Assembly: GCA_902589185.1 (NCBI GenBank) | Contig: CACIRZ010000014.1 | Coordinates: 1 to 35,904 of the forward strand | Source: an uncultured SAR116 cluster alpha proteobacterium | GTDB lineage: Bacteria; Pseudomonadota; Alphaproteobacteria; Puniceispirillales; Marisalimonadaceae | Direction of reading: 5' to 3' | DNA: 35,904 bases | Shown: positions 16,088 through 24,823 of the stretch, one piece after another | Numbering within the stretch: the stretch's first letter is position 1 | How the letters are laid out: every line of letters begins with the position of its first letter | Position numbers and translations under genes: made by a program | The notes under the pieces: model-generated | What the model was told of the DNA's origin: nothing | What the model saw: only the letters and a program-made list of their open reading frames with translations | The model's database searches: none

Positions 16088-17026
16088 TTATGGTTTGGCA
16101 AAAGTTTCTACTTTTGTTATGTTTTTAATAATTCCTTTTCTTTTTAAAAAATTACTAAATTTTTTATAGGTTTTTATGTCATGTGCTTGTGGTCTTAGAG
16201 CAAACCTAGATATAGTGTCTTTGTAAGCTCTTTTATTTAATTCATCATCTAAACCTTTTCTATATGAAGAAAAGTCTTTCCACGTAGATACTGGGTCATT
16301 TATAATTGTTAAAGTTGCTTTTTGAATTGCACTAAAAAATTTATCGAAAAGTGGGTGATTTTTATTTTTTTGATTTGCAATGTATATTAGTTCTTCATAA
16401 GTAGGTACGCCGTGCTCTTCGGGATAGAAGGCTCTACCTGGATGGTTGACAATATCCATTTGATTGAGCTCAAAATTTCTAAAAGCACCAATAACTGCAT
16501 CAACTTTTTTTGCAATTAATGAGGGTGATAATGAAAAGTTAATATTCACTAAATCTACATCAGACATCTTTAGGTTATATTTTTGAAGCATTCCAGAGAG
16601 TAGAGCTTCTTCAAATCCACCAACTGAAAATCCAATTTTTTTTCCTTTGAGATCTGAAATTGTTCTAATAGGCCCATTTCTTAAGACAACTAATGAATTT
16701 AATGGAACACTCACTAAAGTTCCAACTCTTACAACCGGTAAACCTTGATCAACTTGAATGTGTAGTTGTGGTTGATATGAAATTGCTAAGTCTAATTTGC
16801 CAGCTGCAACTAATTTTGGAGGATCATTTGGATCAGCTGGCTCGATCATCTCGACATCAAGGTTAAGATCTTTAAAAAAATTTCTTTTTTTAGCAATTAT
16901 TAGAGGAGCATGATCAGGATTTATAAACCAATCAAGTCCTATCGTTAACTTTTGTGATGAAGCATTAACATTACAAGTTAATGTTAAAAGAAAAAAACTT
17001 AATAATATTTTAAATGTTTTATTCAT
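16088..17026 (-). CDS. thiY: ThiY-like periplasmic binding protein for thiamine pyrimidine precursor
   Basis: A 312-residue periplasmic solute-binding protein of the NMT1/THI5-like family. An N-terminal signal peptide (basic start then ILLSFFLLTLTCNVNAS) is followed by LTIGLDWFINPDHAPLIIAKKR, the pyrimidine-site segment. Further conserved parts are GKLDLAISYQPQ and the segment with AFYPEEHGVPTYEELIYIA. ThiY binds formylaminopyrimidine or related HMP precursors for import and salvage. I choose ATG 17026 over the in-frame ATG 17032, because the latter touches the GGAGGGAG ribosome site with no spacer. A TPP riboswitch lies immediately upstream, strongly supporting the thiamine role. A permease gene lies further upstream but no ATPase is visible. 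Confidence 0.93.
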   Translation of the reverse strand: MNKTFKILLSFFLLTLTCNVNASSQKLTIGLDWFINPDHAPLIIAKKRNFFKDLNLDVEMIEPADPNDPPKLVAAGKLDLAISYQPQLHIQVDQGLPVVRVGTLVSVPLNSLVVLRNGPIRTISDLKGKKIGFSVGGFEEALLSGMLQKYNLKMSDVDLVNINFSLSPSLIAKKVDAVIGAFRNFELNQMDIVNHPGRAFYPEEHGVPTYEELIYIANQKNKNHPLFDKFFSAIQKATLTIINDPVSTWKDFSSYRKGLDDELNKRAYKDTISRFALRPQAHDIKTYKKFSNFLKRKGIIKNITKVETFAKP

Positions 17027-17110
17027 TTGCATCTCCCTCCGCTGGTTTTAACCAGATCAGGTTATAAGGGTTAATTTCTCAGCAAGACGAATGTCACGCA
17101 CCCCTGGCAA
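17027..17110 (-). promoter_or_regulatory. TPP (THI-box) riboswitch controlling thiY
   Basis: Read on the minus strand the leader contains the thi-box elements in order: GGGGTGC, CTGAGA, ACCTGATCTGG, then CCAGCGGAGGGAGA. These are the conserved TPP-aptamer core bases. A short closing stem TTGC (17110-17107) can pair with GCAA (17030-17027) just before the chosen ATG. The purine-rich 3' aptamer strand GGAGGGAG is also the only ribosome binding site for thiY. So ligand binding should hide the Shine-Dalgarno and switch off translation directly, without a separate expression platform. No intrinsic terminator is seen between aptamer and start codon. Confidence 0.95.
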
Positions 17111-17149
17111 TTTATTTCTATTACAAATATAGAAAAAATCAATTATATT

Positions 17150-17875
17150 TTATTTCCACCATACATATCGGCTAAGAACATAATCTGTGATTTTATAAAT
17201 AGTAATGGTCATAAAAATAAGAATTAATAGAGCAGCAAACATGTTATCAGTTTGCAATCTTGCATTACTGTATATCATAAATGACCCTAGCCCAGTACTT
17301 CCTCCAATCCATTCTCCTACAACTGCACCAATTGGAGCAAAGCATGCAGCCACTCTAAGTCCAGAACATAATCCAGGTAAAGAAGAAGGTATTTTTATTT
17401 TCCAAAACAATTGAATTTTTGAGAGATTTAATGTTTTTCCGGCGTCAATTAGTTCTTGAGGAACTTTATTTAAGGCATCTGTGAAATTTGATGTGATTGG
17501 GAAAAAAACTATTAAAACTCCTATTACTATTTTACTGATCATTCCGTATCCAAGCCACAAAATTAATAATGGAGCTAAAGCAAAAACTGGAATTGATTGG
17601 CTTGCAAGTAATATTGGCATTATCCATCTCTTTAATGTTACTGAAGAAAAAATTATCAAAGCTGTTGATATTCCAATTAGAGAGCCAATTGCTATAGAAG
17701 CCAAAATTTCAATAAGTGTATAGGATGCGTGAATTATGAGTTCATCCCAGTTAACGTAAATTGATACAAATATTTTTGATGGAGGAGGGAGCATAAAAAC
17801 AGGTAGCTGAAAAAATAAACAGCTTATTTCCCATATCACAAAAATAGTTGTTGCAATTAATATTCCTCTTATCAT
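17150..17875 (-). CDS. thiX: ABC transporter permease, ThiX-like
   Basis: A 241-residue BPD_transp_1 permease with about six helices. The conserved EAA-loop appears as the segment around FTDALNKVPQELIDAGKTLNLSK, followed by FWKIKIPSSLPGLCSGLRVA. The family is that of SsuC/TauC/ThiX. The next gene on the strand is thiY, supporting a ThiXY thiamine-precursor importer. I start at ATG 17875 (MIRGILIATT), which has AAGG just upstream. An in-frame start at 17956 would add 27 residues and run into the divergent deacetylase gene. The ATP-binding ThiZ is not seen here, and the riboswitch lies after this gene, so it does not control it directly. Confidence 0.85.
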   Translation of the reverse strand: MIRGILIATTIFVIWEISCLFFQLPVFMLPPPSKIFVSIYVNWDELIIHASYTLIEILASIAIGSLIGISTALIIFSSVTLKRWIMPILLASQSIPVFALAPLLILWLGYGMISKIVIGVLIVFFPITSNFTDALNKVPQELIDAGKTLNLSKIQLFWKIKIPSSLPGLCSGLRVAACFAPIGAVVGEWIGGSTGLGSFMIYSNARLQTDNMFAALLILIFMTITIYKITDYVLSRYVWWK

Positions 17876-17927
17876 TGTAACCTTAGTAAATAGTGTTATA
17901 TCAATTATATATATCAAATAGAAAAGA

Positions 17928-19052
17928 ATGCAGAATTTTTTATTTACAAGTGACATTTTTAGAGGCTCTAGATATGAAAAAGGTCATCCCCTCGATATGG
18001 ATAGAGTTTGGCCTAGTGTAGAGCTTATAAGGCTTATGGGATGGGTAAAAGAAGATCAAATTATAAAAAACTCACCCGCGGACATTAGTGAGTTAATTAA
18101 ATTTCATGATTTAGATTATGTAAAAGCATTAAAAAAAGCCGAAGAAGATCAAAATCTTCCAGATAATCTTAAGAAAAAATTTAATATTGGTATTGGAAAT
18201 AATCCAATATTTAACGAGGTTTTCTCAAGGCCGGCAACTGCAGCTAAAGCCTCTATAAAAGCTGTTGAAATGATAGCAAATAAAAAGGCAAAAAAAATAT
18301 TAAATATATCTGGTGGAACTCATCATGGAAAAAAATCTCAAGCATTTGGTTTTTGTTTTCTGAATGATTGTGTTTTAGCAATCCTAAAAGCTCTAGAATT
18401 AAATTTAAAAAATATCGTGTATGTAGATCTTGATGCTCATCATTGTGACGGAGTGCAAGATGTTTTTTCTGAAAATGAGAATGTGTCAATTATATCAATT
18501 CATGAAAAAAATAGATGGCCTAAAACTGGTAAATTTGAGGATAATAAACTTTTCAATGTAATAAACTTCCCTGTTAATGAGGATTTCAATGATAATGAAA
18601 TGGATTATATAGTATCCAACGTTATTATTCCTTTCTTAAAATTAAAGAAAGCTGATCTTATAATAATTCAAGCTGGAGCTGATATGCTTGATGGTGATCC
18701 TCAATCAAGAATTAGTTTGACTAATAATGCGTATTGGAAAGCAGTAAGGGATGTTCAGTCTCTAAATGAAAATGTTATAATCTTGGGTGGTGGTGGCTAT
18801 AATCCATATTTAACGGCAAAGGCTTGGGCTGGTAACTGGGTTTTAATAAATGATAAAGAAGAGTGTTTAGACCAAGAGATGAAGCCGCAGTGTTATGATT
18901 TTCTTAAATCTCTTACTTGGCATAATAGACGAGTTAAGAATGGGATTCCCAATAAGTGGATAAGTACTTGGAGAGATGAATATAAAAATGCCGAAGTAGG
19001 GGATGAAATTTTATTTCTTGTAGATAATATATTAAAGATAAAAAAAATATGA
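17928..19052 (+). CDS. Histone deacetylase family protein (AcuC/HDAH-like Zn deacetylase)
   Basis: A 374-residue cytosolic enzyme of the arginase/deacetylase superfamily. The active-site pair is H132-H133 in SGGTHHGKK. Zinc ligands are D169 and H171 in VDLDAHHCDG and D252 in AGADMLDGDP; the transition-state tyrosine is Y291 in GGGGYNPY. The N-terminal KGHPLDMDRV is also typical. Bacterial members remove acyl groups from small molecules (polyamines) or protein lysines such as acetyl-CoA synthetase; the substrate is not clear here. It diverges from thiX with a 52-base gap and overlaps the DUF192 gene by four bases, so those two are co-transcribed. Confidence 0.9.
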   Translation: MQNFLFTSDIFRGSRYEKGHPLDMDRVWPSVELIRLMGWVKEDQIIKNSPADISELIKFHDLDYVKALKKAEEDQNLPDNLKKKFNIGIGNNPIFNEVFSRPATAAKASIKAVEMIANKKAKKILNISGGTHHGKKSQAFGFCFLNDCVLAILKALELNLKNIVYVDLDAHHCDGVQDVFSENENVSIISIHEKNRWPKTGKFEDNKLFNVINFPVNEDFNDNEMDYIVSNVIIPFLKLKKADLIIIQAGADMLDGDPQSRISLTNNAYWKAVRDVQSLNENVIILGGGGYNPYLTAKAWAGNWVLINDKEECLDQEMKPQCYDFLKSLTWHNRRVKNGIPNKWISTWRDEYKNAEVGDEILFLVDNILKIKKI

Positions 19053-19516
19053 TAAACCAAATCAAAATTACCATGTTAGGAGTTTTCCTAATATTGTGGC
19101 AAAGTGTTTTATATGCTGAAATTAATAGCCCAATATTCAAAAAAATTATTTGTGGTGTTAATGTTGGTAATAATAATGTTCAAGAGTTATCTCTAGAAAT
19201 TGCTGATAATGAGCCAAAAAGATCTTATGGATTAATGAATAGAGAAGAAATGAAATCTAATTCAGGAATGTTGTTTATTTGGAAAGATAGACAAATTCGA
19301 AATTTTTGGATGAAAAATACACATTTTAATTTAGATTTATTTTTTTTGAATAACCAAGGTGAAATAATTGAGATTTATAAAAATGCTAAAGCATTTGATG
19401 AAACAAACATTAAAAGTCAAAATGAAGTAAATTTCGTGGTTGAATTAAGATCTGGAGAGTATCAACTATTAATAGGAGATAAATTTAACTGTCCATTTAA
19501 AGAATTATTGAAATAA
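19049..19516 (+). CDS. DUF192 family secreted protein
   Basis: A 155-residue protein with a cleavable-looking N-terminal signal (residues 1-25: ITMLGVFLILWQSVLYAEI). It is followed by a DUF192 domain: LEIADNEPKRSYGLMNREEM, then GMLFIWKDRQIRNFWMKNTHFNLDLFFL and a C-terminal VVELRSGE segment. The WMKNT...DLFF pattern is the family hallmark. It is probably periplasmic; no enzymatic activity is established for DUF192. Overlap of ATGA with the deacetylase stop suggests co-expression, but the functional link is unknown. Confidence 0.9.
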   Translation: MINQIKITMLGVFLILWQSVLYAEINSPIFKKIICGVNVGNNNVQELSLEIADNEPKRSYGLMNREEMKSNSGMLFIWKDRQIRNFWMKNTHFNLDLFFLNNQGEIIEIYKNAKAFDETNIKSQNEVNFVVELRSGEYQLLIGDKFNCPFKELLK

Positions 19517-19577
19517 ATTCAATTAGTTTAAAGTAAAGCTTGATTTTAACAATTTCTAAAGTATAAATCGAATTGTT

Positions 19578-19654
<77 letters not shown>

Positions 19655-19677
19655 AATTTATTATTTATCTTCTATTT

Positions 19678-20544
19678 TTAAGCCATTATAGGTTTTTGGT
19701 CACCAACCAAGGTAACTCTATGCATAATCCTTTTGATAGTATTGTTATCAAAAGCTTCAACTGAATGCATTGTACATCTATTATCCCACATCACAATGTC
19801 ATCATTATTCCAAATATGTTTGTAAACATATTTAGATTGAATTGAATGTTCTATTAAGAAATCAAGCAATTCTCTTCCTTCACTATAATCATAATCATAA
19901 ATTTTTACCATCGTATGTGGTGATAAAAAGAGACTAGATTTCTTAGTTGAAGGATGCTTCCTTACCAAAGGATGAATAACAGGATCAAGTTTATCATAAT
20001 TGCCTTTGTTTTTTCTTTTGCTAAGTTCGTCAGACAAACTTATTATAAAGTCGTGATCGTGTACTACTTTTAAGTTTTTTATTTTCTGTTTTATCGATTC
20101 TTCTAGATCCTCATAAGCTTTATACATATTTGCAAATAGAGTATTTCCTCCTTTATTTGTAGTAGAAATACCATGAAGAATAGATCCATTACTTGGTATT
20201 TTTCGAAATGAACTATCAGTATGCCAAAGCCATGATTGTTTTAAATATTGCCATGAGGTTTCTTTGTTAGGAATAATATCACCATTTTCATCAACATTGG
20301 AGACCCTATAAATTTCAGGATTCTTTGATGATCTATGTGATAAAGAAGGGTGAACTTCTAGTTTACCAAATCTTTTCCCAAATTTAATATGATCTTCATC
20401 AGAAATATTTTGATTGGGAAAGACAATAACTAAATATTCAAGCCATAATTTTTTGATTTTTTGAAAAGTATCACTATCTAAATTTGAGATATCAATACCT
20501 TCAATTGAAATGCCTATATTCTCATGTAAACTTTTTACAATCAA
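19678..20544 (-). CDS. TauD/TfdA family Fe(II)/2-oxoglutarate dioxygenase
   Basis: A 288-residue cytosolic dioxygenase. The iron-binding facial triad is visible as H108-x-D110 in SWLWHTDSSF and distal H260 in RCTMHSVEAF. The 2-oxoglutarate-binding arginine is R276 in MHRVTLVGD. Families with this architecture (TauD, TfdA, alkylsulfatases) hydroxylate sulfonates, phenoxyacetates or similar carboxylates; the substrate is unknown. The start is TTG at 20544, with AAAGGA upstream; no ATG precedes the first motif. It lies 34 bases after the coiled-coil gene of the DUF1538 operon on the same strand, so read-through is possible, but its GC is much lower than that operon's. Confidence 0.88.
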   Translation of the reverse strand: MIVKSLHENIGISIEGIDISNLDSDTFQKIKKLWLEYLVIVFPNQNISDEDHIKFGKRFGKLEVHPSLSHRSSKNPEIYRVSNVDENGDIIPNKETSWQYLKQSWLWHTDSSFRKIPSNGSILHGISTTNKGGNTLFANMYKAYEDLEESIKQKIKNLKVVHDHDFIISLSDELSKRKNKGNYDKLDPVIHPLVRKHPSTKKSSLFLSPHTMVKIYDYDYSEGRELLDFLIEHSIQSKYVYKHIWNNDDIVMWDNRCTMHSVEAFDNNTIKRIMHRVTLVGDQKPIMA

Positions 20545-20578
20545 AATAAGATATCCTTTGATGCGTTACTAAAATCTC

Positions 20579-21331
20579 TTATTTTAATTTAATCAGTAGA
20601 TCTGCAGTACGTCTCTGATTTGCTACAACACGTTCGCGATCTGCTTGTATGCGTTCACGTCGTTTAGCTATTTCATCACCAAGTTCTAAAATGCCTTTTG
20701 TATCGTTCTCAACACGATTTACTAAGTCAGCAGCCTCGTTCTCTGCAGTATTCGCTCTTTCTAGAAGTTTTTCTAATCGCTCAGCATTAGATTTTACAAA
20801 TTGTGCATTTGCACTTGAAGTAGCCTTTCTCATTTGTTTAGCAATCGATCCATCAGCCCAATCAGCATTTTCAGAAATCATTGTATCACCTTGTTCTACT
20901 ACTGACTCATTTGCTTCAGTGATTAAACCGTTAACTGACTGTAACATCTGATTTACTTCAATCATTTTAGTGGCAATTTCGCGTAAAGTATCGTTGAGAT
21001 CAGAACGATTTTCAAGTTGTTCAATCCTTACTTGATTTAACATCCTCACCTTGAAATTATTTTGAATGTCAGATGATGGTTCAAGTGCTTCAAGCATTGC
21101 CATTCGACAGCCATACAGATCATTAACATTGTCAATTGCTATTGATCGGTTACCCATAAAAGCAGAGGTAAAATTTCTTTGTAGTAACGAACGATTTTCT
21201 TCAATATCAGCGAGTAAAAGCATGAGTTCAGCATATGTCGTAGACACTTCTGCATCCAGCTCAAAAATCCTTCGTCTATTCTTACGAATATTTGTTTTAT
21301 TTTCAGATATTAAATCAGTTTTTTTTGCCAT
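20579..21331 (-). CDS. Soluble coiled-coil protein of unknown function, linked to DUF1538/PII operon
   Basis: A 250-residue highly charged, almost entirely helical protein with no membrane helix or signal. Heptad-like runs are seen throughout, notably residues 1-50 (KNRRRIFELDAEVSTTYAEL), 95-135 and 175-245 (NAERLEKLLERANTAENEAA; DEIAKRRERIQADRERVVA). A central segment QGDTMISENADWADGSIAK may break the coil. I recognise no family. It is the last gene of the unit DUF1538-PII-PII, 11 bases after the second PII gene. Base composition is like its upstream neighbours (about 40% GC in a counted line) and unlike the flanks. A scaffold or partner of the PII proteins is a guess. Confidence 0.8.
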   Translation of the reverse strand: MAKKTDLISENKTNIRKNRRRIFELDAEVSTTYAELMLLLADIEENRSLLQRNFTSAFMGNRSIAIDNVNDLYGCRMAMLEALEPSSDIQNNFKVRMLNQVRIEQLENRSDLNDTLREIATKMIEVNQMLQSVNGLITEANESVVEQGDTMISENADWADGSIAKQMRKATSSANAQFVKSNAERLEKLLERANTAENEAADLVNRVENDTKGILELGDEIAKRRERIQADRERVVANQRRTADLLIKLK

Positions 21332-21342
21332 GGTTTCACCTA

Positions 21343-21729
21343 TTATTCTATAATTTCCTCTAACTCTGCGTGATCATCATCCTGAAGTTCATGTTTAGTG
21401 GATTTCTTTAGTTTGTTCATATAGATTATTCCTTTATTTGGCTCTGATAATTCGCAGAAGCGATAAATAAAATCGAATATATTCTCAGCTTGGTCAGCTG
21501 TTACCACAACATGAAATTGCTCTACATCAAAAGAACCTGAAACACCCGCCACAGTTTTCTGTCCAATCATCGTGCCAGCCACGTTGTAAAAGTAAACTTC
21601 ATTGATATTACGTTTCATTAGCTCAGGGATTAACTTGTCGGTACCACCTTCATACAATATACCTGAAATTAACCAAGTGTAATCAAGATAGTGCACTCTA
21701 GGATCTGTTTTTATTTCAGGAAAAACCAT
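21343..21729 (-). CDS. PII-like protein 2 (ferredoxin-like regulatory fold)
   Basis: A 128-residue soluble protein resembling PII-like regulators. The C-terminal half has a strand-helix-strand pattern with FHVVVTADQAENIFDFIYRF, then GIIYMNKLKK, equivalent to the last repeat of the PII ferredoxin-like fold. The N-terminal half has WLISGILYEGGTDKLIPELM followed by VYFYNVAGT, equivalent to the first strand-helix-strand; the loop containing AGTMIGQKTVAGVSGS may be the T-loop. The acidic tail (DDDHAELEEIIE) is extra. Canonical PII T-loop uridylylation (Tyr51) is not visible. The gene starts one base after the stop of PII-like 1. Family by fold pattern; no exact subfamily. Confidence 0.72.
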   Translation of the reverse strand: MVFPEIKTDPRVHYLDYTWLISGILYEGGTDKLIPELMKRNINEVYFYNVAGTMIGQKTVAGVSGSFDVEQFHVVVTADQAENIFDFIYRFCELSEPNKGIIYMNKLKKSTKHELQDDDHAELEEIIE

Positions 21730-21730
21730 C

Positions 21731-22090
21731 TCATGAACCTACATATTTAGATAAAATGGAAGGCGGAACGTAGGTGGCAGCCTGCATTAGAGGAGTTGCG
21801 TACATGAAACCCATACCAGGTGTATCCAACTTTCCAGCTAAAAACATTCGTTCAAAAACTCTATCTACTTCATCACTTGAAACCATCACATTGACGACAT
21901 CTCTTTCGGCATCTACAGCAACACCCAAAGCACCTAATCTTTCACGAATTCCTACACCCATTGCGCCATGTACAGTTGATCCTTGAATTCCCACCTCTAG
22001 TAAAGCGTCAGTAATAATCTCCCCATAACCATGTTGTACAACTGCAGTAATTAGTGTTGCTTCAGTTAATGTGGTAAATGAACGTTTCAT
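21731..22090 (-). CDS. PII-like protein 1
   Basis: A 119-residue protein of the PII signalling fold. The first strand and helix are ATLITAVVQHGYGEIITDALLE; a T-loop-like region follows (HGAMGVGIRERLGALGVAVD). The second repeat is DVVNVMVSSDEVDRVFERMF, then LDTPGMGFMYATPL in place of the usual B-loop/C-loop region, and a C-terminal AATYVPPSILSKY. PII proteins bind ATP/ADP, 2-oxoglutarate or other small molecules and plug membrane transporters. It overlaps the DUF1538 gene by four bases, as expected for a dedicated partner. Signature residues of GlnB/GlnK are not present, so the ligand is unknown. Confidence 0.8.
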   Translation of the reverse strand: MKRSFTTLTEATLITAVVQHGYGEIITDALLEVGIQGSTVHGAMGVGIRERLGALGVAVDAERDVVNVMVSSDEVDRVFERMFLAGKLDTPGMGFMYATPLMQAATYVPPSILSKYVGS

Positions 22091-23877
22091 TTTGTTTCTC
22101 CTTCATGAGCAAGCTCACGAGCAACACGGCGCTCCTCGCGTTTTACTTTAAATTGTACATAAATACCAAGTGTCAAAACTGCGACAATAGGACAAATTGA
22201 TGCAGCAGCCAAAATTCCAAATCCGTCTGTTGAACCAAGTGCATTACCAAATCCTAGACCCATAGCAAGCACTAATGGAACAGTGACAGGCCCAGTGGTA
22301 ACACCTGCTGAGTCCCAACCAACATTAACGAATTCTTCAGTCGATAAAAGTGTCAATATCAATCCAAGAGTATAACCAGGTATTAAAATATACATTATAT
22401 GAAACCCATAGATAAGTTTCAAAACACCTAGCATAATGCCAGTACCCACACCAAATGCGACTGCTATCATTAACATGGATTTTTTAAATGCACCGTTTGT
22501 TAAATTCTGCACAGTCATCCCAAGTGCGTTTAGGGCAGGCTCTGCAAGAGTAGCTGAAAGACCAAGTACCCAAGCAAATAAACCCGCAATCCCAACACCA
22601 ACTGTCATGCTATAAAGAGGACTTGCTATAATTGCATCAATTGATGTAAAAGCACCTGCAATCAATCCGCCCGATTGATCTCCGAGTTTAGCTAAACCGT
22701 AGGTTAAACCGATATTAAAAATACACATTCCCATGACTGCTAGTATAATTCCGTAGTAGGTGATGAAGGCATTTTTTAATTTTTCACGTAAAATTACTAA
22801 TAGCACCACTGCTAAGAAAATCACCAATGGTACAATGGCTCGCACACCTAAGATTACTTCAGTCCAAGGGGTAACTTCATACCATAGTGGCTGAGAGGTT
22901 GCAGTCTGAGCGGCTAATTTTATTTCAGCTGCTTTTTCGATAATCAGTTCTGCTGGAACTGTATACGCAGTGTAAAAGCTTAGTATCAATACCCCTAGAA
23001 TTGGGAACACTGATGCCAATGTCACAATACCAAATCCAGATAATGAAGAATCTGCACCTTTACCGGCTGCTGCAGCGACACCAATACCAAGTGCAAGGAC
23101 TAATGGTACTGTTACTGGACCAGTTGTAACTGCTCCACAATCCCAAGCTAAACCAACAATTTTAGTTAGTTCAGGGTCCATGAAAGCAATAATACTCAAA
23201 ATCAAAGTAGGGGTGACGCTCATAAAAATCATTGGCTTTAAACTCCAGCCACGTAAAAACCTAACTGTACCCAAAACTGCTGCTAAACCAACACCAAGTC
23301 CAACTAGTAAAACAGTTGCACCTGAGCGATCATTTAGTAATGTAAATAAATAAGGTGCTTGTTCTGGATCAACAATGGATCCAGCCACTTGTAATGCTCC
23401 AATTGCTGGCTCGGCAAATGTTACACCTATACCTAATAAGAATGCTATAAATAGTACGCCAGTCAATGGTAGTTTGCGAGGCAAAGTATTACCGATTATC
23501 TCACCAAAAGGCATGAGCCCGAGTTTTAACCCTTCCATAAACATCATTAAGCCGATCATAACAGCAAATAAACCGCCTGCAATTATACTTGCGTCCATGA
23601 CAGGTGTTTGAAGAACTAAATATTGGAAAAGTGCCAAATAAATTGCCAGTGGAACAACTGCACGTGCCTGGTCAATAAATCGTGTAGACAAATATGGTTG
23701 TAGAATTTTAAATATATCACCACCACCCAATTTCATTTTTGGTACAGGTTGTGGATGTTCATTACCATGACGATCAAATAGTGGTTCTGGCATTAATTCT
23801 TGATATGGAATTTTTTGACTGTCGATTGACATTGCTTGGATGTAATCACCAAATCTTATGGTTTTTCGTCTTGACAT
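22087..23877 (-). CDS. DUF1538 duplicated membrane protein, putative transporter
   Basis: A 596-residue inner-membrane protein with two homologous DUF1538 halves. Repeat 1 has FAEPAIGAL (154-162), WDCGAVTTGPVTVPLVLA (245-262) and GFGIVTLASVFPILGV (281-296). Repeat 2 has LAEPALNAL (444-452), WDSAGVTTGPVTVPLVLA (521-538) and GFGILAAASICPIVAV (552-567). Each half starts with a similar helix (RAVVPLAIYLA 72 onward; RAIVPLVIFLA 346 onward). The internal symmetry and the near-identical Gly/Pro/Thr motif suggest a pore made of two inverted or parallel repeats. N-terminal 60 residues are cytoplasmic. PII-like genes follow directly. Substrate unknown. RBS AAGGA precedes ATG 23877. Confidence 0.88.
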   Translation of the reverse strand: MSRRKTIRFGDYIQAMSIDSQKIPYQELMPEPLFDRHGNEHPQPVPKMKLGGGDIFKILQPYLSTRFIDQARAVVPLAIYLALFQYLVLQTPVMDASIIAGGLFAVMIGLMMFMEGLKLGLMPFGEIIGNTLPRKLPLTGVLFIAFLLGIGVTFAEPAIGALQVAGSIVDPEQAPYLFTLLNDRSGATVLLVGLGVGLAAVLGTVRFLRGWSLKPMIFMSVTPTLILSIIAFMDPELTKIVGLAWDCGAVTTGPVTVPLVLALGIGVAAAAGKGADSSLSGFGIVTLASVFPILGVLILSFYTAYTVPAELIIEKAAEIKLAAQTATSQPLWYEVTPWTEVILGVRAIVPLVIFLAVVLLVILREKLKNAFITYYGIILAVMGMCIFNIGLTYGLAKLGDQSGGLIAGAFTSIDAIIASPLYSMTVGVGIAGLFAWVLGLSATLAEPALNALGMTVQNLTNGAFKKSMLMIAVAFGVGTGIMLGVLKLIYGFHIMYILIPGYTLGLILTLLSTEEFVNVGWDSAGVTTGPVTVPLVLAMGLGFGNALGSTDGFGILAAASICPIVAVLTLGIYVQFKVKREERRVARELAHEGETK

Positions 23878-23952
23878 AATTAATCCTTACAATAAATTAT
23901 TATGTATAAATAGCTGTAATATACGACTAAATCAATAAATTTTATTTAAGAA

Positions 23953-23981
23953 TTTATAAATGCATACTGTTAAAACTTCAA
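23953..23981 (-). promoter_or_regulatory. Candidate sigma-70 promoter for DUF1538/PII operon
   Basis: On the minus strand TTGAAG (23981-23976) and TATAAA (23958-23953) are exactly 17 bases apart. A transcript from near 23947 would have a 70-base leader. The 172-base gap upstream of the operon holds no gene. A second TTGATT further downstream could also serve. Base match is good but the gap is very AT-rich, so confidence is moderate. Confidence 0.4.
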
Positions 23982-24049
23982 ATTTAAAATAAATGATTTT
24001 TAATGTTATCCTTAATAAATCAATTAGTCACTAAAAGTTTGAATAGATG

Positions 24050-24823
24050 CTATCTCTTCCAACTGGGTTCTCTTTTTTCCAAAAAGGCTTTCAAGCCTTC
24101 CTGAGCATCTGGAGTTGTTGCTGCATTACAAAAATCTTCAACTGCATTAGCTACACCTCGTCTATAATCAAGATCATTAGTTCTTAAAAAGGCTGCTCTT
24201 CCTAAATTCATAGTTATAGGTGATTTTTTTGATAAATTTATTGCTATTTCATTAACTTTTTCTCTAATTTCACTTGATAAAACTTTTCGACTAATTAACC
24301 CTAACATAAGCGCTTCGTCAGAGTAAAATGTTCTACCGCTAAAAAGTAAGTCAAATGCTTTATATCTTCCGATAATTCTTGGAAGATGTGTGAAATGGAT
24401 TGCTGGTAACAATCCTAAGTCTATTTCTGGATATCCAAATGAAGCTTTTTCTGAAGCAATAATCATATCACATGATATAGCAAGGGTCATTCCACCACCT
24501 CTTGCAGCTCCGTTGATTGATGCTATTGTAGGCTTTCCCATGTTATATTGAATATCCCAAAGATCTATATAAAGGCGATTTAAAAACTCTCTAATTTCTA
24601 ATCCTGACTTATTTAGTAAAAGATTTAAATCTAGACCTGCAGAAAATATCTTGTTGATGTCACTCTCTACTATAAGAGCTCTTACTTCTTTATCTTTAGA
24701 GGCAATTTTAAGTGTGTTCAAAATATCATTTAAAAAATCAATGCTAAATGCATTAAAAGGATTACGTTTCAGTGTTATCCATGCAATATGATTAGTTACT
24801 TTGTATTCAATAAATTTATCCAT
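24050..24823 (-). CDS. Enoyl-CoA hydratase/isomerase family protein (possibly delta3-delta2 enoyl-CoA isomerase)
   Basis: A 257-residue crotonase. The oxyanion-hole segments are SAGLDLNLL and NGAARGGGMTLAISCDMIIAS. In enoyl-CoA hydratase the GGG is followed by a glutamate (Glu144), here replaced by a Met-Thr pair. The second catalytic glutamate (Glu164 equivalent) is kept in FGYPEIDLGLLPAI. A single glutamate at this site is the pattern of mitochondrial enoyl-CoA isomerase ECI1, so isomerase activity is more likely than hydratase. It would act in unsaturated fatty-acid oxidation, consistent with the ETF-QO gene. It stands alone with gaps of over 100 bases on both sides. Confidence 0.85.
   Translation of the reverse strand: MDKFIEYKVTNHIAWITLKRNPFNAFSIDFLNDILNTLKIASKDKEVRALIVESDINKIFSAGLDLNLLLNKSGLEIREFLNRLYIDLWDIQYNMGKPTIASINGAARGGGMTLAISCDMIIASEKASFGYPEIDLGLLPAIHFTHLPRIIGRYKAFDLLFSGRTFYSDEALMLGLISRKVLSSEIREKVNEIAINLSKKSPITMNLGRAAFLRTNDLDYRRGVANAVEDFCNAATTPDAQEGLKAFLEKREPSWKR

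Follow-up and report, generated by a model that had tools for sequence, protein, structure and literature searches.

A two-halved DUF1538 membrane protein encoded with two unlike PII-like proteins points to an unstudied cation-transport switch

UmpAB of Halomonas zhaodongensis is reported to be a Na(Li,K)/H antiporter made up of two components, both DUF1538 homologues, with antiport measured in everted vesicles (PMC5484666). It is described as a heterodimer that works in E. coli when expressed from a clone for which no PII gene is described, and PII, P-II and GlnB are nowhere mentioned in the main text of that paper (PMC5484666). Control of transporters by PII proteins has precedents in AmtB-GlnK and SbtA-SbtB (PMC10710835, PMC10117731); the PII-controlled transporters named in one account are those for ammonium, bicarbonate, nitrate/nitrite and urea, and according to the same account such control seems limited to transporters able to work as trimers, while one PII protein may act on several targets (PMC10710835). 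In the NifI1,2 system as described, two PIIs are both required for control (PMC9765008). Literature searches, with most subscription papers and all preprints outside their scope, showed none among the papers listed that links PII to DUF1538.

The cassette and its DUF1538 protein

The window analysed here is a 35,904-nucleotide stretch of DNA from an uncultured SAR116 cluster alphaproteobacterium, and it contains a cassette of four genes with these features:

22087..23877, minus strand: DUF1538 transporter with fused UmpA-like and UmpB-like halves, 596 aa (ORF, Pfam, NCBIfam)
23704..23865, minus strand: N-terminal extension of the DUF1538 protein, residues about 5-58 (low confidence in the AF2 model)
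22975..23646, minus strand: first DUF1538 half, UmpA-like (Pfam, NCBIfam)
22162..22824, minus strand: second DUF1538 half, UmpB-like (Pfam, NCBIfam)
21731..22090, minus strand: PII1, PII-like protein, 119 aa (above the Pfam P-II cut-off)
21343..21729, minus strand: PII2, fast-evolving PII-like paralogue, 128 aa (profile and tblastn homology)
20579..21331, minus strand: CC, helical protein, 250 aa (AF2 model)

All four open reading frames lie where the initial annotation had put them, and the coordinates bear out its 4-base overlap between the DUF1538 and PII1 genes and its 1-base gap between PII1 and PII2; the gap between PII2 and CC is 11 bases. A tRNA-Pro was the sole match of an Rfam search. 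A scan of nine window proteins (16088-24823) gave no nif families, which places the cassette outside a nif operon context.

The DUF1538 protein has two domain matches to PF07556 (E 2.2e-50 and 6.8e-50; full-length E 6.8e-99). The two halves share 38.4% identity across 219 aligned residues, and the motifs A-E-P-A and W-D-x-x-x-V-T-T-x-P are invariant or nearly so in both halves of the alignment. The claim that the substrate is unknown was too strong, because Na(Li,K)/H antiport has been reported for UmpAB (PMC5484666). The protein does not reach the NCBIfam UmpA and UmpB equivalog cut-offs (216.1 versus 490 and 164.6 versus 500 bits), an observation that counts against membership of the UmpAB family; a split pair, L107, likewise falls under these cut-offs, with 336.8 and 321.8 bits. 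The AF2 model (mean pLDDT 76.6) matched no solved fold at E <= 0.001, and the DUF1538 profile found no PDB match at E <= 1.

Sequence relations of PII1 and PII2

PII1 scores above the cut-off for Pfam P-II (PF00543; 27.3 versus 25 bits), and PII2 has no match in Pfam. Used as a tblastn query, PII2 picks up PII1 in distant loci (L048, E 6e-8; L043, E 5e-7), and its profile aligns with the PII1 profile over 113 columns (hhalign 99%); judged by these matches, PII2 is a PII homologue. Against solved structures the PII matches of the PII2 profile are weak, the best of them (E 0.05) ranking below a chance-like match to OSCP (E 0.03). PDB entry 9p1x contains two P-II chains, which we suspect to be NifI1/NifI2.

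Identity to the corresponding proteins of L031 is 67% for DUF1538, 55% for PII1 and 37% for PII2. The PII2 sequences form one group (100/97, with few columns and long branches). Across the stretch that corresponds to the B-loop of PII1, the first glycine is present in 3 of 38 PII2 rows, the proline in 26 of 38 and the last glycine in all 38. One PII2 match, in G055, has one internal stop codon.

The motifs T-G-x-I-G-D-G-K and R-I-R-T-G belong to the ATP site of canonical nitrogen-sensing PII (GlnB/GlnK). The SAR116 genome also encodes a canonical GlnB-type PII, in which both motifs are present. They are absent from the PII1, PII2 and single-PII rows tabulated, where the T-loop region is also shorter; for this comparison six canonical stretches were taken, two of which (L198 and L199) gave no usable row. 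PII1 and PII2 have lost the canonical ATP/2-oxoglutarate motifs, and PII1 lacks the canonical T-loop motifs as well.

Conservation of the gene order across genomes

The order of a long-fused DUF1538 gene, then PII1, then PII2, is conserved in 79/79 assessable loci examined, comprising 53/53 in L003-L056, the loci L124 and L145, 14/14 long-fused loci of Nitrospinota and 10/10 lower-scoring loci. The duplicated DUF1538 gene therefore has two distinct PII-fold genes in stable linkage, as initially proposed, and because the arrangement recurs in many distant genomes it is far beyond chance. Among 61 near genomes, DUF1538 and PII2 occur in the same 10. The suggested co-occurrence is borne out for DUF1538, PII1 and PII2. 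The coiled-coil gene is not a core member of the set: among the loci seen CC is confined to one clade, and it has relatives elsewhere that lack a neighbouring DUF1538 gene. CC is modelled by AF2 as three long helices (pLDDT 94) and may perhaps serve as a tether.

The N-terminal extension co-occurs with PII2. It is present in 73/73 long-fused DUF1538 proteins with an intact 5' part, and was seen only in proteins encoded alongside PII2; the profiles of the extension and of the PIIs derive from the same loci and so are not independent of them. No CBS match was found in the long-fused sets (L003-L056, L169-L182, L200-L211, L124 and L145). Flanking genes change across groups while the DUF1538-PII1-PII2 linkage stays; ECH, TauD, DUF192 and HDAC neighbours were matched in just 14 of 56 loci, and in two of those 14 the match was to a distant HDAC only. 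At L206 the DUF1538 frame is broken inside the first half.

Split or short-fused DUF1538 systems have a PII gene beside DUF1538 in 41 of 45 cases, usually a single one, and a CBS-pair gene nearby in 33 of 45; PF00543 and PF00571 were confirmed at L112. The extension is absent from those examined. Four single-ORF short fusions (L110, L120, L127 and L144) have two halves and one PII each, so two halves need not mean two PIIs; around a fifth, L133, two PIIs occur, but its gene run includes a CBS gene and a split umpA-umpB pair as well. L126, L129 and L131 (3/38 of the loci L107-L144) and L212 have no PII gene, which counts against the reading favoured below.

These counts reflect how the loci were drawn. 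L003-L056 lean to close relatives because they were drawn by peptide patterns of the query. L107-L144 are one or two loci per genus among the listed high-scoring matches (38 of 126 positive Pseudomonadota genomes), and 13 lower-scoring genomes (L200-L212) were added against the high-score bias of that set; 42 of 43 DUF1538-positive Pseudomonadota genera were covered, leaving out g158, with 75 of the 126 positive genomes outside the sample. For Nitrospinota, 20 loci were taken among the matches listed, and long-fused loci in G755 and G730 were left out. Rows were dropped for L057 and L058 (contig-end fragments of 63 and 25 residues), L042 and L204 (truncated downstream of DUF1538), L202 (a run of N inside PII1), and L146 and L189 (judged to duplicate the contigs of L044 and L029).

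A possible control module and its known counterparts

The cassette combines a two-halved membrane ion exchanger with two unlike sensor-like PII proteins, and points to an unstudied cation-transport switch. We lean modestly towards a reading in which PII1 and PII2, probably as a heteromer, regulate a fused cation/proton antiporter of the UmpAB family, perhaps via the N-terminal extension. The operon would encode a UmpAB (DUF1538) family antiporter with its subunits fused, antiport being presumed from the family, together with a dedicated cytosolic control module. PII1 would correspond to the lone PII-like protein generally encoded with DUF1538 transporters, and PII2 would be a second, faster-evolving paralogue, found in the fused-long branch only, that would occupy the place of the CBS-domain pair elsewhere. 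By analogy with NifI1/NifI2 the two may act jointly, most likely as a hetero-oligomer; they would dock on the transporter, with the extension as the candidate site, and presumably inhibit cation/H exchange, or lift the inhibition, in response to a signal inside the cell, most likely adenylate or energy state. A stronger proposal makes PII1 and PII2 an obligatory mixed sensor, which would be the first of its kind for a membrane ion exchanger. It would bind to an extension that arose together with PII2 and would have taken over the work done by the CBS pair in the sister branch. This is possible and is put forward only tentatively.

Two published observations run against a PII-controlled antiporter: PII-controlled transporters are described as seemingly limited to those able to work as trimers (PMC10710835) whereas UmpAB is a reported heterodimer, and UmpAB was active from a clone without a described PII (PMC5484666). 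The DUF1538 protein could instead be under PII control but carry a substrate that is not an alkali cation, such as a small anion or a nitrogen/carbon compound, driven by Na or H and with antiport as a side activity. The sole functional study of the family that we found is heterologous (PMC5484666), and the named PII-controlled transporters carry ammonium, bicarbonate, nitrate/nitrite and urea (PMC10710835); however, UmpAB antiport was measured (PMC5484666) and there is no conserved substrate-linked neighbour among ECH, TauD, DUF192 and HDAC (14/56 loci matched), and we consider another substrate rather unlikely. The idea of one PII per half, with separate PII1 and PII2 homotrimers that each control a half of their own in the fused protein, fits two unlike, conserved PIIs beside two unlike halves, but a single PII is the norm in two-halved or two-subunit systems, among them the UmpA+UmpB pairs and the four short fusions, and PII2 tracks the extension rather than the presence of two halves. 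Such a dual gate is disfavoured and appears improbable.

PII1 and PII2 might also have their targets elsewhere, in the cytosol or in transcription, and simply be co-expressed with the transporter, as PII proteins may have several targets (PMC10710835) and the genome has a GlnB-type PII besides. The linkage in 79/79 loci across distant groups despite changing flanks, and the PII gene adjoining DUF1538 in 41/45 of the remaining loci, make this quite unlikely. That PII2 is a decayed PII1 duplicate without a role would suit its fast evolution (37% against 55% and 67%), the first B-loop glycine missing in 35/38 rows and the stop codon in G055, but its retention in every assessable locus, its single group (100/97, on few columns and long branches) and the last B-loop glycine kept in 38/38 rows render decay very improbable indeed.

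DUF1538 was found in 126 of the 398 Pseudomonadota genomes drawn and, for Nitrospinota (the phylum of L041's genome), in 42 of 60 genomes, and a DUF1538-coupled regulator would therefore be widespread. If PII1 and PII2 do control a cation/proton antiporter, this would link ion and pH balance to metabolic signals inside the cell, and would add to the ammonium, nitrate, urea and bicarbonate uptake described as being under PII control (PMC10710835). Should they form the obligatory mixed sensor, DUF1538 transporters would make up a widespread class of antiporters under PII control whose nucleotide-sensing modules can be exchanged. The role of PII2 could be approached by a natural comparison of the split branch, where a single PII usually comes with CBS, and the fused branch, where PII1, PII2 and the extension go together.

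UmpAB (PMC5484666; NCBIfam NF041627/NF041628) shares with the protein described here the DUF1538 Pfam domain, a UmpA-like and then a UmpB-like half, and conserved acidic motifs in both halves, but it consists of separate subunits, whereas here a single 596-aa ORF with an N-terminal extension is followed by two PII genes. The umpA-umpB-PII-CBS operons of Pseudomonadota and Nitrospinota also have a PII-like gene after DUF1538, although one PII and a CBS-pair gene replace PII1 and PII2, and the extension is lacking. Like the cassette, SbtA-SbtB and AmtB-GlnK have a PII-family gene directly beside the transporter gene (PMC10710835, PMC10117731), but are described as trimeric transporters with one PII each, and we saw no sequence relation to DUF1538 in the profile search of the PDB at E <= 1. 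NifI1/NifI2 of methanogens, compared by description, differ in that their target is nitrogenase and their genes lie in a nif operon, but they too are two adjacent unequal PII genes, with both products needed for one target (PMC9765008).

Organization of the DUF1538 operon

The initial annotation proposed that a two-halved DUF1538 protein is followed by two PII-like proteins and a coiled-coil protein (CC). This four-gene anatomy is confirmed, with the open reading frames and junctions as described there, and is strongly conserved. The window belongs to a SAR116-type genome.

22087-23877, minus strand: ORF, DUF1538 protein, 596 aa
21731-22090, minus strand: ORF, PII1, 119 aa, above the Pfam P-II cut-off
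21343-21729, minus strand: ORF, PII2, 128 aa, no match over the Pfam cut-off
20579-21331, minus strand: ORF, CC, 250 aa, no match over the Pfam cut-off

The DUF1538/PII1, PII1/PII2 and PII2/CC junctions are -4, +1 and +11 bases, respectively. The DUF1538 protein contains two PF07556 domains, of which the first matches UmpA and the second UmpB, in each case under the NCBIfam cut-off; alignment of the two halves over 219 residues gives 38.4% identity. Despite the lack of a Pfam match, PII2 is by sequence comparison a PII paralogue, because tblastn searches with PII2 find distant PII1 genes, and hhalign agrees.

Other lineages of Alpha- and Gammaproteobacteria have DUF1538 proteins 84-93% identical to that of the window, and the DUF1538 tree requires several class-label changes, which together suggest, but do not prove, transfer. 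The flanking genes of the window have close matches in near relatives only. A tRNA-Pro gene lies at 19578-19654, about 900 bases past the 3' end of the operon; together with the patchy distribution of DUF1538 among near genomes (10/61), this may indicate an insertion site.

PII genes and the architecture of DUF1538 proteins

A scan of GTDB genomes yielded 56 DUF1538 loci (L-numbers denote loci from other genomes), two of which, L057 and L058, contain only a short piece. They span SAR116, other Alphaproteobacteria, Gamma- and Betaproteobacteria, one Bdellovibrionales and one Nitrospina genome. The order DUF1538, PII1, PII2 is present in all 53 assessable loci of L003-L056 (L042 is cut downstream), with spacings of -8 to +53 bases between DUF1538 and PII1 and -11 to +27 between PII1 and PII2, the start codons being script-chosen. 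The same PII pair is found in L124 and L145, in 14/14 Nitrospinota long-fused loci fetched and in 10/10 assessable lower-scoring Pseudomonadota loci, so that PII1-PII2 follows a long-fused DUF1538 gene, encoding UmpA-like and UmpB-like halves in one chain, in 79/79 assessable loci. DUF1538 and PII2 are also both present in the identical 10 of 61 near genomes, and neither was found in the remaining 51, many of which are incomplete. The predicted co-occurrence of DUF1538 with two PII genes is thus borne out. None of the long-fused DUF1538 genes in L003-L056, L169-L182, L200-L211, L124 or L145 was found to have a CBS gene next to it. In L054:6001-9308, from a Planktomarina MAG, DUF1538 and CC are fragmented into several ORFs, perhaps through assembly error or decay.

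In long-fused proteins, approximately 55 residues precede the first DUF1538 domain. A profile built from this extension matches 51 of the 54 proteins of L003-L056 (including L042), missing L033, L053 and L055, which are cut by the contig start; it also matches L124, L145 and 12 of the 14 Nitrospinota loci, L176 and L178 being cut by the contig end. Among the divergent, lower-scoring loci, L200, L201, L203, L205 and L207-L211 match with E values from 0.02 to 7e-16, some of them weak, L202 and L204 are missed by the profile and have a similar leader by eye, and L206 has its frame broken within the first DUF1538 half. The extension is therefore present in 73 of the 79 dual-PII loci, the other six being without the 5' part, and the profile has zero matches among split or short-fused proteins, L212 included. 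PII2 is thus strictly associated with the long-fused, extended DUF1538 branch in the loci examined, which is a new point. Confidence in the extension is low in the AF2 model (block pLDDT 40-65), which would fit a segment becoming ordered on a partner, but also plain disorder.

Loci with separate umpA and umpB genes (split), or with both halves in one ORF without the extension (short-fused), are organized otherwise. Among 38 such loci from 37 genera (L107-L144), a PII-like gene adjoins DUF1538 in 35, with a CBS-pair gene also near in 27; L126, L129 and L131 have no PII gene. All six Nitrospinota split loci fetched have PII and CBS, and L212 has neither, giving totals of 41/45 for PII and 33/45 for CBS; both Pfam assignments were confirmed on L112 proteins. 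The initial annotation raised the possibility of one PII per DUF1538 half, but this form of a dual gate is disfavoured: in each of the short fusions L110, L120, L127 and L144, a single PII gene and a CBS gene accompany both halves, and two halves thus need not have two PIIs. The exceptions to a single PII among split and short-fused loci are L133 (1999-6214), where a fifth short fusion begins the run short fusion-PII-CBS-PII-umpA-umpB, and L135, where the opposite strand carries an extra PII gene at a distance of about 3.5 kb. L124:4938-9952 has both types in tandem, a split system with one PII and then a long-fused system with two. DUF1538 is therefore linked family-wide to PII (and CBS), also a new point; no mention of this linkage was found in the papers searched. 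DUF1538 is listed in a table in the section on key pH-adaptation genes of a growth-pH machine-learning study (PMC13255231).

The coiled-coil protein

CC lies outside the core formed by DUF1538, PII1 and PII2: it follows PII2 in the clade comprising the window and its relatives among Beta- and Gammaproteobacteria. In the DUF1538 tree, rows with CC come together in a single supported group (24 rows), and CC was not found in the available DNA of L040, L041, L043-L052 and L056. Among 398 phylum genomes drawn it is present in one, the window's own; it accompanies the operon in 8 of 61 near genomes, G045 has CC without a DUF1538 match, and G017 has the operon without CC. G055 has a dual-PII operon without CC and weak CC matches at two other places (L149:1-1184 and L150:1157-2414), each divergent beside a similar ~170-aa protein with no Pfam match. 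A wider CC profile matches six of 289 class genomes: the window's, that of L029, L190-L192 (E ~1e-39), and one weakly in a 1143-aa frame. L190-L192 derive from three 1.4-Mb alphaproteobacterial genomes (G681, G475, G592), and their CC relatives lie near TerB-like genes (by Pfam in L190 and L192) and DnaJ-like genes (a Pfam assignment in L190, visual identification in L191 and L192), with no DUF1538 match in these stretches (L190:3701-7127, L191, L192). A nearby gene in L190 has a ribosome-recycling-factor match below cut-off. Because it is clade-limited, occurs without DUF1538 and is absent from some dual-PII operons, CC is an add-on that also exists independently.

Three long helices are seen in the model of CC (4-82, 88-159 and 172-249; pLDDT 94). 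Asparagines recur every 14 residues, at 99, 113, 127, 141 and 155 (window 20867-21037), with little or no variation across 29 rows, as if forming polar layers within the coiled coil.

Putative ligand and control of the presumed antiporter

The genome's own GlnB-type PII retains the canonical motifs. Neither T-G-x-I-G-D-G-K nor R-I-R-T-G nor the T-loop stretch with its Tyr occurs in the PII1, PII2 or single-PII rows inspected, and the T-loop region of all three is shorter than canonical. PII1 has instead L-D-x-P-G-x-G, with D, P, G and G in 35/35 rows and L in 34/35; of the 38 PII2 rows, 26 have the proline of this stretch, three its first glycine and all 38 its last. In a tree of few columns and long branches, a branch (100/97) separates all PII2 rows from PII1, the single PIIs and the canonical rows. 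The missing motifs make it unlikely that PII1 or PII2 binds ligand in the canonical ATP/2-oxoglutarate manner. SbtB is reported to bind ATP, ADP, AMP, cAMP and c-di-AMP through side chains differing from those of canonical PII (PMC10117731), and an adenylate is therefore our best guess for the ligand.

UmpAB of Halomonas zhaodongensis is reported to be a heterodimer with Na(Li,K)/H antiport activity, functioning in E. coli from a clone for which no PII gene is described (PMC5484666). Transporters under PII control are known in AmtB-GlnK and SbtA-SbtB (PMC10710835, PMC10117731), and NifI1,2 is reported to illustrate that two PIIs can both be needed for one target (PMC9765008). By analogy with these systems, we favour a PII1-PII2 module that would regulate the presumed fused DUF1538 antiporter, perhaps by acting on the N-terminal extension; on contact, stoichiometry, ligand and direction of control we infer throughout. 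A review according to which PII control is apparently restricted to transporters able to act as trimers (PMC10710835) argues against a simple plug by analogy: AmtB-GlnK and SbtA-SbtB are PII-controlled, trimer-capable transporters, whereas UmpAB is a reported heterodimer.
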